Shown here: positions 39,597 to 42,728 of the stretch, in pieces
Numbering within the stretch: the first letter of the stretch is position 1
How the letters are laid out: every line of letters begins with the position of its first letter
Source of the DNA: Bacillota bacterium
GTDB lineage: Bacteria; Bacillota; Bacilli; Alicyclobacillales; SLC66
DNA length: 48,381 nucleotides
Direction of reading: 5' to 3'
NCBI GenBank assembly: GCA_021846285.1
Contig: JAJZCB010000017.1
Coordinates: forward strand, 1-48,381
Made by a program: the position numbers and the translations under genes
Notes under the pieces: generated by a model
The model's input: only the letters and a program-made list of their open reading frames with translations
Databases searched by the model: none
Told to the model about the DNA's origin: nothing

Positions 39597-39769
39597 CCCA
39601 GGGTGTCTGTACTCCAGAGGTTTATGGCGGCATACGCACGTCTTTCGGTTTGACCCGCGGACTTTCGTCTGGAAGTCGCGCGCGTTGCATGAATATCCGA
39701 TTTGATCGAAGCATCGATCTCTTGGACAAGGCAGGTTAACTCGGATTTAAAGGTTGGGAGTGATTGGGT

Positions 39770-40339
39770 GTGGCGGTCAAGGAGAGACGCGCCCGGCCGA
39801 TGTCTTGGATCATATATTACTTCCTGCTGCCCATACTGGCTTCCGCGCTGTTCGCAGGAATCGCCCTGCAGATTGTGGGCATCAACGTTCTCGGCAAGAT
39901 CACGACCGCGACCGATCAGATACCCGCCGTCCGTCACATGTTGGGGCAGTCGCCATTGGCGCCGCCAGTACCGGAGCAGGTGGCCGCATTGACACGTCAA
40001 TTGCATCAAAAGACAAATGAGATCACACGCCTCAAACGGTCTGTGGTGTCGTTGGAAGCAAAGGTGGCGGCAGACCAGGCGCATCTGGTCGTACTCTCCA
40101 GGCAGGCGCAAGCAAGACTGTCGCAGGTTCACAAGACGGGTATGGTTGCGCAAAGCGCAGTTAAGCAGGCCAAGGTATACATGGATATGTCACCGAATCA
40201 AGCGGCTGTGATCTTGACACAACTGTCCTTTGCGGAACAGGTTCTGGTCTTGCGCGCGATGGATTCTGCGGATGAGGCGTCCATTCTTGCAGACATGGCG
40301 CCTAAGCAGGCAGCAAAGCTTTTACAGGCGGGCGCATGA
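39770..40339 (+). CDS. YlxF/MotE-like flagellar-operon protein
   Basis: 189 residues from GTG 39770, nine bases after GGTTGGGAG. One membrane helix (about 14-36: YFLLPILASALFAGIALQIV), a coiled coil (about 75-125, QLHQKTNEITRLKRSVVSLE) and a C-terminal MgtE_N-like domain with AKVYMDMSPNQAAVILTQLS and DEASILADMAPKQAAKLL. It holds the place of ylxF between fliJ and fliK. MotE proteins chaperone motor assembly in some bacteria; here the role is inferred. The 167 bases before it hold only very short frames and a GATCGA/TCGATC hairpin. Confidence 0.8.
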   Translation: MAVKERRARPMSWIIYYFLLPILASALFAGIALQIVGINVLGKITTATDQIPAVRHMLGQSPLAPPVPEQVAALTRQLHQKTNEITRLKRSVVSLEAKVAADQAHLVVLSRQAQARLSQVHKTGMVAQSAVKQAKVYMDMSPNQAAVILTQLSFAEQVLVLRAMDSADEASILADMAPKQAAKLLQAGA

Positions 40340-40396: not shown

Positions 40397-40462
40397 ATGC
40401 CGCAAACGTCAGCATTGCGCCCGAAAGGGTCAGGCCTCCGAGGAAAGGAGGAAGCCAGTTGA
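40397..40462 (+). CDS. possible 21-residue leader ORF of fliK
   Basis: ATG 40397 opens a frame (MPQTSALRPKGS...) of 21 residues whose TGA (40460-40462) overlaps the fliK start TTG as TTGA. AGGAGG lies only two bases ahead, closer than normal, so translation is uncertain. If made, its translation would open the hairpin on the fliK ribosome binding site. Confidence 0.3.
   Translation: MPQTSALRPKGSGLRGKEEAS
40435..40451 (+). promoter_or_regulatory. hairpin over the fliK ribosome binding site
   Basis: CCTCC (40435-40439) pairs with GGAGG (40447-40451), the Shine-Dalgarno of fliK, over a 7-base loop; a CCC-GAAA-GGG hairpin lies just upstream (40420-40429). It could hold down fliK translation. 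Confidence 0.4.
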
Positions 40463-42276
40463 GTGTTGAACTTTCACCGTCAGAACTGTCATCCGGAAAG
40501 ACGCAAACGCGCACGGGCGCTCCCAGGCGGCATATCAATGCTGGACAAAAGGAGCAGGTCAAGTCGCATGGCGGGCATGCCGGTCAACCCACAGGGTTGG
40601 TCGCCCAAGGGCCAGGGATCTTTTTGTCTTGGCTTGCCATAGAGAAACAGCGAACTGCGCAGGTTCCATCCCAGAGTGGCTTTAGTGCGTACCGCGCGGG
40701 TACGGCTGCAGGGCGCAGCGGCGCAGCAAACTCTCCCGGGCATGGGGAGACGACAGCGAACGCCGCGGTGGGCGAGACGGGGCTCGCTAGGCTGGGAGCG
40801 ATAACGCCGGGGAGATCTTCAACAGAACCGATCGTCCTGAGTAAACACCCGCCTGGTGTGCAGACGATTGAGCAACGGGGCAGCGAGGGTGCTCAGACGG
40901 TGTTGTCGTCAAGGGGCCGCGGGGTCTTGACTGGAACTTCGTACATGCGAATCGCTGTCCGCGGCCCATCTGGACTGGGTTTAGTACGCGCGGAATCAGG
41001 ACTGGCGCGCAGTAATTTGGCCACAGTTATTGACACACAGCAAACTCAGCGATCGTCGGTTCGGGAACTTGCTGTGGCGGGGTCAGGCGTACGCAGTCAT
41101 GCATCCCCAGGCAGCGATGCCCTGTCGGCAGCACCGGGAAGCGGCTCGACCGCTGCACTGAAGGCAGCACAGGGAAACGGCTCGGCCGCTGCACTGAAGG
41201 CAGCACAGGGAAACGGCTCGGCCGCTGCACTGAAGGCAGCACAGGGAAACGGCTCGGCCGCCGCACTGAAGGCAGCACCGGGAACCGCGTCTCCCGCCGC
41301 ACTTTTGGCAGACAGGCGCTCCCTACAGGCTCCTATGGTCGTTGCTGCGACAGGCAGTAGGTCGCCGCTCTCCGTACTGACTGCAACTGCGCAACGAACA
41401 GCGGGGACTGCTTCTACCGTCGGCGCTCCTGCGTCCGCTTCTCGAGGTGTCGCTTCTGTCCAAAATCTAACGTTTTCCGCATCCCACGGGCGCGGAAAAC
41501 CGATCAATGCTTTGTCTGTCAGAGGCGCTTCCCAGGCTGCGCGCCTTCTCTTGCGGGGTTCCGCTGCACAAATGCAAACGGGTTTTCGCAAGGCGGGCGC
41601 TCGCGGTCAGGGAAAGCCGCGGATTCACACTGGTGTTCCAGCAGGCGCCCCTGCAGGAGCGCAGGAGTCCATAGTTACTCCGAACGCGACGATGGTTCCT
41701 CCTGGGGTGGGCGGAGCGTCAGTTTCCAGTCAGTTTCACCAAGGCCGGTCGCACACGAGCGGATCTCTGTCGCCTGGTGAAGGCAGCCTGGCGGCAGCCA
41801 ACGCGAATGAGTCATCGGGGCTTGCTGTTCCCGCGCTTCAGAGTTTGCTGATGCAGCGATTTGCTCCAGACGTGGCCGGATGGCTGATGCGACAAAGTGC
41901 GCAAATGCTTGGCAGCGGTTTTTCCGCCATCGAATTGACCCTCGTTCCCGGGCATCTGGGGAAACTTCGGGTTACCGTGACAGGTGACAAAGTGACAGGA
42001 TTGCGAGTCCGATTTGCGTTAGCGAATCAGGAGGCGCAATCCCTGGTCCAGTCACAACTGCCCGAATTGCGCCAGCTTCTTCACGCGGGCGGATACGGAT
42101 CTGTCGCCATCGATGTCGGTGCTGACAGTGGGCATTCTTCCTTGAAGGGCGAGCAGAACCACAAGCAACCGCTGAACGCTCATGCCCTGAGGGGCAGTGT
42201 GTCGATCGGTCGGTCCGAGAGTCCGTATGCAGCGCAGCGCGATTTTGATCACGCGGGATTCACCGCGCGAGCATGA
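40459..42276 (+). CDS. fliK: flagellar hook-length control protein FliK
   Basis: 605 residues from TTG 40459, seven bases after AAAGGAGG. The first 440 residues are low-complexity, rich in Ala, Gly, Ser, Gln and Thr, as in the extended ruler part of FliK, and contain a 12-residue tandem repeat at about 223-282. The C-terminal domain (about 475-560) has IELTLVPGHLGKLRVTVTG, LRVRFALANQEAQSLVQSQL and ELRQLLHAGGY, the conserved Flg_hook switch domain. FliK is exported and measures the hook, then turns the export gate to late substrates. Confidence 0.92.
   Translation: MSVELSPSELSSGKTQTRTGAPRRHINAGQKEQVKSHGGHAGQPTGLVAQGPGIFLSWLAIEKQRTAQVPSQSGFSAYRAGTAAGRSGAANSPGHGETTANAAVGETGLARLGAITPGRSSTEPIVLSKHPPGVQTIEQRGSEGAQTVLSSRGRGVLTGTSYMRIAVRGPSGLGLVRAESGLARSNLATVIDTQQTQRSSVRELAVAGSGVRSHASPGSDALSAAPGSGSTAALKAAQGNGSAAALKAAQGNGSAAALKAAQGNGSAAALKAAPGTASPAALLADRRSLQAPMVVAATGSRSPLSVLTATAQRTAGTASTVGAPASASRGVASVQNLTFSASHGRGKPINALSVRGASQAARLLLRGSAAQMQTGFRKAGARGQGKPRIHTGVPAGAPAGAQESIVTPNATMVPPGVGGASVSSQFHQGRSHTSGSLSPGEGSLAAANANESSGLAVPALQSLLMQRFAPDVAGWLMRQSAQMLGSGFSAIELTLVPGHLGKLRVTVTGDKVTGLRVRFALANQEAQSLVQSQLPELRQLLHAGGYGSVAIDVGADSGHSSLKGEQNHKQPLNAHALRGSVSIGRSESPYAAQRDFDHAGFTARA
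41125..41304 (+). repeat. five tandem 36-bp repeats inside fliK
   Basis: Units start at 41125, 41161, 41197, 41233 and 41269. The units at 41161 and 41197 are identical, that at 41233 differs by one base, and the outer two are diverged. Each codes for 12 residues of the type KAAQGNGSAAAL. The near identity points to recent duplication. Confidence 0.95.
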
Positions 42277-42290
42277 GAGGAGGGATCGGT

Positions 42291-42728
42291 TTGTCCAGTA
42301 TCAGCGTGCAGCCTGCGAGTGGACAGGGAAACTCGCAAGTGCCTCAACCGTCGTCTGTTCCCGGTGGGTCGCTCGGCCAGAATGCGTTCTTGCAACTTCT
42401 GGCGATGCAGATGCAGTACCAGGATCCTCTGGCGCCGCAGTCAAGCAGTCAGTTTGTCGCTCAACTGGCGCAGTTTTCCACGCTCGAACAGATGACCAAC
42501 GTGTCGTCAGAGGAACAGACCCTAATCAACGCCATGGGCGGTCTCACAGCGTCCAGTCAGATGGCTTCCGCGACGGGGCTGCTCGGCGATACGGTGACTG
42601 TCTCGAGCAATGGCGGGAGTCCAGTCACCGGTGTAGTCACGTCGATAGCCAGTCAGAATGGGCAAGTCATGCTCACCGTGTCTGGTACCCCGTATCCGTT
42701 GAGTGCGATCACGTCCGTAGCGAAGTAA
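42291..42728 (+). CDS. flgD: flagellar hook capping protein FlgD
   Basis: 145 residues from TTG 42291, with GAGGAGGG ahead (ATG 42273 sits inside that site). LGQNAFLQLLAMQMQYQDPL and QFVAQLAQFSTLEQMTN are the FlgD N-terminal signature; the short C-terminal beta domain (GLLGDTVTVSSNGGSPVTGV) is of the Bacillus length, lacking the larger Ig-like part of enterobacterial FlgD. It caps the growing hook. Confidence 0.93.
   Translation: MSSISVQPASGQGNSQVPQPSSVPGGSLGQNAFLQLLAMQMQYQDPLAPQSSSQFVAQLAQFSTLEQMTNVSSEEQTLINAMGGLTASSQMASATGLLGDTVTVSSNGGSPVTGVVTSIASQNGQVMLTVSGTPYPLSAITSVAK

Follow-up and report, generated by a model that had tools for sequence, protein, structure and literature searches.

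Contingency loci are simple-sequence repeats in which a change in repeat number switches expression or the reading frame; they are hypermutable and yield selectable steps. In-frame minisatellites (arrays of the VNTR type) consist of tandem near-identical units of roughly 10–100 bp, more alike than chance would give and varying in number from strain to strain.

FliK proteins of the Salmonella type are secreted, gauge the hook and switch export. In Salmonella, the length of the hook-length control protein FliK sets the length of the flagellar hook, with 0.2 nm of hook added per inserted residue over FliK lengths of 363–785 residues, and motility halos shrink when FliK has 363 residues or fewer or 520 or more, the wild type having 405 (PMC6126814). 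Residues 1–207 of this protein are described as the ruler, 208–267 as a flexible linker and 268–405 as the switch domain, a fully extended chain corresponds to 0.37 nm per residue, and wild-type hooks vary in length with an SD of 4.5–6.5 nm (PMC6972891). Plasmid-borne linker deletions of 10–30 residues left motility near normal, with one 10-residue deletion slightly reduced, and the authors cautioned that over-expression from the plasmid may mask deletion effects; a chromosomal 30-residue linker deletion was slightly less motile and had looser length control, and five-residue linker deletions gave hooks about 4 nm shorter, which is beyond prediction, with motility fully restored (PMC6972891). 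Both FliK and YscP were predicted to be largely random coil in a 2005 paper (PMC1084347).

The closest published parallel found for the array described below is the phage tail tape-measure protein, for which variable numbers of 11-residue units have been documented (PMC3271669). Among the titles and abstract openings listed in literature searches outside the subscription journals, which also covered repeats and needle length in YscP, none dealt with variation in FliK repeat number, and the excerpts of PMC10956519, PMC5015957, PMC2743711, PMC6127512, PMC4468381 and PMC1084347 contain nothing on FliK repeats.

The FliK described here shares with the Salmonella-type protein (PF02120) the C-terminal Flg_hook domain, an extended N-terminal and central part predicted to be of low order and a gene position next to flgD. 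It differs in having 605 residues instead of 405 and an Ala/Gly/Ser-rich centre, predicted to be of low order, which carries a tandem array. Like the phage tape measure, it is a length-setting protein with short in-frame tandem units that are duplicated and lost, but the two proteins are unrelated, and the unit number, variable in the tape measure, is equal in the only pair of FliK sequences compared.

The fliK gene and its 36-bp array

The window, which is the whole stretch of DNA analysed (48,381 nucleotides, contig JAJZCB010000017.1 of assembly GCA_021846285.1), contains the following features at and around fliK.

39764..40339, + strand: neighbouring gene 5′ of fliK, taken to be MotE-like; it matches MgtE_N (Pfam PF03448, 26.1 bits; cut-off 25.9)
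40444..40451, + strand: Shine-Dalgarno-like AAAGGAGG, 7 nt 5′ of the fliK TTG, recognized by eye
40459..42276, + strand: fliK, hook-length control protein, 605 aa, TTG start (ORF and Pfam PF02120)
41125..41304, + strand: five in-frame 36-bp units within the fliK ORF, FliK residues 223–282
41125..41160, + strand: repeat unit 1, SAAPGSGSTAAL; five base differences from unit 2
41161..41196, + strand: repeat unit 2, KAAQGNGSAAAL
41197..41232, + strand: repeat unit 3, KAAQGNGSAAAL; same DNA as unit 2
41233..41268, + strand: repeat unit 4, KAAQGNGSAAAL; one synonymous base off units 2 and 3
41269..41304, + strand: repeat unit 5, KAAPGTASPAAL; eight base differences from unit 2
41150..41261, + strand: perfect period-36 tract of 112 bp
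41890..42135, + strand: Flg_hook (export-switch) domain, FliK residues 478–559 (PF02120)
42273..42728, + strand: flgD, hook cap, directly 3′ of fliK (Pfam PF03963, E 2e-18)

Judged from its sequence, the gene is a true fliK, as the initial annotation had proposed, because its Flg_hook match (E 3.9e-12, 46.2 bits) lies above the curated cut-off of 29.8 bits and the hook gene flgD adjoins it. The remaining ORFs around fliK, named from their sequences, presumably form a standard flagellar cluster.

Alignment of the units bears out the earlier description of five 12-residue repeats, two of them identical in DNA and a third differing by one base. Tandem Repeats Finder gives the array a score of 281 with a period of 36, 4.4 copies and 95% matches, and the 112-bp perfect tract arises from 76 consecutive bases, each identical to the base 36 positions further on. 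Among 2000 codon shuffles of the window FliK, a score of at least 50 was reached in 25 and the maximum was 69. The array consists of tandem near-identical units beyond chance, as in a minisatellite, with the caveat that a short-read assembler could miscount identical units containing a 76-base exact repeat. Across the 3.89-Mb assembly of 164 contigs the array was found at this site only, the two other matches being trivial (E 0.33 and 0.61).

The array sits in a low-complexity, Ala/Gly/Ser-rich spacer about 195 residues N-terminal of the switch domain. This position, past the N-terminus and short of the switch domain, corresponds to the part to which work on Salmonella (PMC6972891) assigns the ruler and linker, in line with the initial assignment to the length-setting part of FliK. 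An AlphaFold model, built on an alignment of only three sequences, has a mean pLDDT of 34.4, with values of 27–30 across the array and above 50 almost exclusively in the Flg_hook fold; this low confidence outside Flg_hook fits a disordered spacer, as weak evidence, and the model is of insufficient quality for a fold search. Separately, DNA structure was considered as the reason for the array and rejected, the single-strand folding of its 180 bases being no better than that of dinucleotide shuffles (z 0.19), and an antisense ORF running across it (41097–41591) was regarded as a likely by-product of the high G+C content of the repeat.

The array in congeners

A Flg_hook match was present in 13 of the 18 genomes of the family, the other five being 60–83% complete, and the 13 include two congeners, G001 and G002; a contig scan for further carriers of the array gave the same two congeners only. 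The FliK of the sister species G001 (a MAG titled Bacillota bacterium, JAJZEE010000061.1) is 84% identical over 463 residues, corresponding to residues 143–605 of the window FliK, as the G001 contig ends at residue 143. It has five 12-residue units in register with those of the window, each species being represented by one genome, and the two sequences differ in length within the overlap by a single codon near 40936, which is not part of the array. On this comparison the array is older than the split of the two species, since G001 also has five units.

Despite the equal unit number, the sequence of the array is not conserved: 34 of its 180 bases differ between the two species, compared with 115 of the 1209 bases that make up the remaining overlap (Fisher p 0.0004), and it is no less diverged than any 60-codon stretch of the overlap. 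Units 2–4 of the window lie 0–1 base apart from one another, but differ from the G001 units at the same positions by 5, 4 and 8 bases, a pattern that probably reflects copying among these units since the divergence from G001. The single change seen in their 108 bases compares with about four to six predicted for the window lineage from the divergence of the flanks (P 0.02–0.07, an estimate that assumes a uniform ancestral array). Of the initial annotation's view of the repeats as recently expanded, the recent origin of the near-identity of units 2–4 stands, and the array itself predates the split.

Unit 5 of G001 is nearest to its own unit 1 (three differences), and unit 5 of the window is nearer to unit 4 of G001 (eight differences) than to unit 5 (eleven). 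From these affinities, each lineage may have gained and lost units, with the changes cancelling and the count returning to five. The equal number, resting on one species pair, could also be coincidence; in a pair of Xanthomonas strains, repeat number was equal by convergence in five of six satellite loci, which have shorter units (PMC4468381).

The third congener, G002 (JAJYTO010000001.1), has a 569-residue FliK without a clear array, its 36 missing residues being the net result of several gaps instead of the exact removal of three units.

We hold with reasonable confidence that the array is an in-frame minisatellite in the Ala/Gly/Ser-rich spacer of an ordinary FliK ruler, undergoing turnover at a held length and serving as no switch. 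Its units would be copied, lost and homogenized through replication slippage or recombination between repeats. The unit number would stay at five while the sequence turns over because, as we infer, such copying and loss are tolerated in a spacer without a fixed fold and net ruler length is kept by selection on hook length. Such an ordinary case suggests that a length-setting protein can change its sequence fast at constant length.

FliK arrays across the phylum

A set of 142 distinct FliK ORFs was assembled, comprising 51 from the order (in which 51 of 59 genomes have a match) and 91 taken from 246 further genomes of the phylum with a match; the latter were mainly the best-scoring ones, with some rows skipped by hand, and are not a random sample. 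Several of the 91 are close to the end of a contig or have a short frame, and 7 of the 142 ORFs are truncated on their upstream side by the end of the available sequence. Arrays with a score of at least 100 were found in 13 of the 142 FliK ORFs, in none of the 142 flanks (247,232 bases) and in none of 20 rounds of codon shuffling; at a score of at least 50, the counts were 29 ORFs, 10 flanks and a mean of 2.9 in the shuffles. Two of the 13 ORFs with strong arrays are those of the window and G001, and five come from the order. Relative to general genome samples, drawn from the order only, strong arrays are in threefold excess in FliK (13 in 219,732 bases against 25 in 1,270,330, p 0.002), and the length and low complexity of FliK alone could raise the rate.

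The one-contig genome G339 (G339:C1:1301500-1304900) has a FliK of at least 1000 residues with 12 near-identical units of 48 residues (144 bp, 97% matches), and its hook would be very long if the ruler scales as in Salmonella. Its congener G359 has a 506-residue FliK frame without such an array. Within the same family as the window genome, G012 (contig C5) carries a 240-bp in-frame duplication in fliK (97% identity, 80 residues), which was not found in its congeners G005 and G016. In the three congeners G071, G151 and G180, a five-residue FliK unit is present in about 8.7 copies, in 3.2 copies (weak, score 54) and in no detected copies, respectively, and the FliK C-termini of G071 and G151 are 92% identical.

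Going by these cases, FliK length elsewhere in the phylum differs by repeat units between related species and is not always held. It is possible, though we put it forward only tentatively, that FliK is a repeat-prone ruler throughout the phylum, in which hook length evolves via duplication and loss of in-frame units, much like a phage tape measure, the window FliK re-copying its units at constant number. Were this true, G339, G012 and the trio G071, G151 and G180 would form a natural hook-length series. The 13 FliK ORFs with strong arrays point to natural ruler-length variants for testing unit-wise evolution of the ruler.

An unlikely alternative is adaptive lengthening, in which the FliK of the genus grew by unit duplication and thereby set a longer hook, in the manner of phage tape measures. 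The 36-residue shorter, array-free FliK of G002 would agree with it, as would the restriction of strong arrays to FliK ORFs as opposed to flanks and shuffles, the duplication in G012 and the 12 copies in G339. However, the G002 difference is a net of several gaps, the excess over the genome samples is just threefold with the window and G001 accounting for two of the 13 ORFs, and a long, low-complexity FliK could by itself raise the array rate.

Arrays in other genes and the effect of one unit

Forty stretches sampled from the window genome, 556,870 bases in total, contain nine arrays with a score of at least 100 (16 per Mb). The period is a multiple of 3 in seven of these arrays, three of which have period 36, whereas the other two have periods of 26 and 32. 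Six relatives, sampled at 60–172 kb each, have 14–40 arrays per Mb. Period 36 was considered as special to the window genome on the strength of the three of nine strong arrays and rejected, one 36-bp array being present also in G037. The arrays located in other genes, with gene names from Pfam labels in the first four cases, are as follows.

L189:16178-16328: SpoU-type methylase, N-terminal extension, 36 bp, 4.2 copies
L177:3625-3706: ribulose-phosphate epimerase frame, 36 bp, 2.3 copies
L178:12709-12791: CobQ-type amidotransferase linker, 12 bp, weaker (score 98)
L180:7672-7741: ABC transporter ATPase tail, 9-bp units
L178:17307-18269: DUF6385 protein, fourteen 12-residue units in higher-order 108-bp repeats

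Like that of FliK, the methylase, epimerase, CobQ-type and ATPase arrays are made of near-identical units in linkers or terminal extensions. Unlike that of FliK, the methylase and epimerase arrays differ in length between the window genome and G001, the former by one 12-residue unit and the latter by 8 residues, while the CobQ-type linker differs by 1 residue and the FliK array by 0. Array length has thus changed in two of the three non-FliK arrays compared and not in FliK, the numbers being small. No match to the DUF6385 protein was found in G001; a related DUF6385 array occurs in G002 at a contig edge. The epimerase frame has start codons at residues 11, 13 and 18, but also at residue 54, after the array, so that from the position of these codons the array may lie before the true start and hence outside the translated part. 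The confidence placed in the reading as an ordinary minisatellite is slightly lowered by this choice of epimerase start points and by the convergence seen in Xanthomonas.

A 28.5-kb contig of G001, C169, breaks off within a methylase array (G001:C169:3-149): 49 residues there are 100% identical to the methylase of the window genome and are followed by the break, and the other methylase copy of G001 is 87% identical over residues 1–63. This contig may reflect a mixed bin or an assembly that broke at the array.

That the true number of units in the window FliK is not five, identical units having been collapsed or expanded by a short-read assembler, is very improbable. Such an error would be favoured by the 76-base exact internal repeat in a draft genome of 164 contigs, and the break of C169 occurs inside an array of like kind; against it, the reading frame is unbroken, units 1, 4 and 5 can be told apart by their bases, and the independent G001 assembly has five diverged units.

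The Salmonella figures come from another phylum and are carried over to the window FliK by inference; on them, one 12-residue unit is predicted to correspond to 2.4–4.4 nm of hook, which is less than the wild-type SD. The initial annotation had proposed a possible contingency device for motility, in which slippage by 12 residues shifts hook length stepwise. As a contingency locus, the array would change its unit number at a high rate within populations and give motility variants open to selection. This reading scarcely survives: the array resembles contingency loci as a tandem DNA repeat inside the gene of a surface organelle, its 112-bp perfect tract could plausibly undergo slippage, FliK length in Salmonella does set hook length with smaller halos at extreme lengths (PMC6126814), and the effect of about 4 nm of five-residue deletions leaves room for a 12-residue step larger than simply estimated (PMC6972891), but a 36-bp unit, being a multiple of 3 inside an ORF, keeps the frame and leaves no on/off switching, the predicted step lies below the wild-type scatter, the Salmonella deletions of five residues were fully motile and those of 10–30 residues near normal (PMC6972891), the unit number is the same in G001, and similar arrays occur in genes unrelated to motility. 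Although a contingency switch of this kind would be new, the evidence argues against one.

Elsewhere in the window, an imperfect 8-bp repeat, AGTACGGC, is present at 97–148 in 6.5 copies with 84% matches and lies upstream of a six-tRNA gene cluster (223–762).
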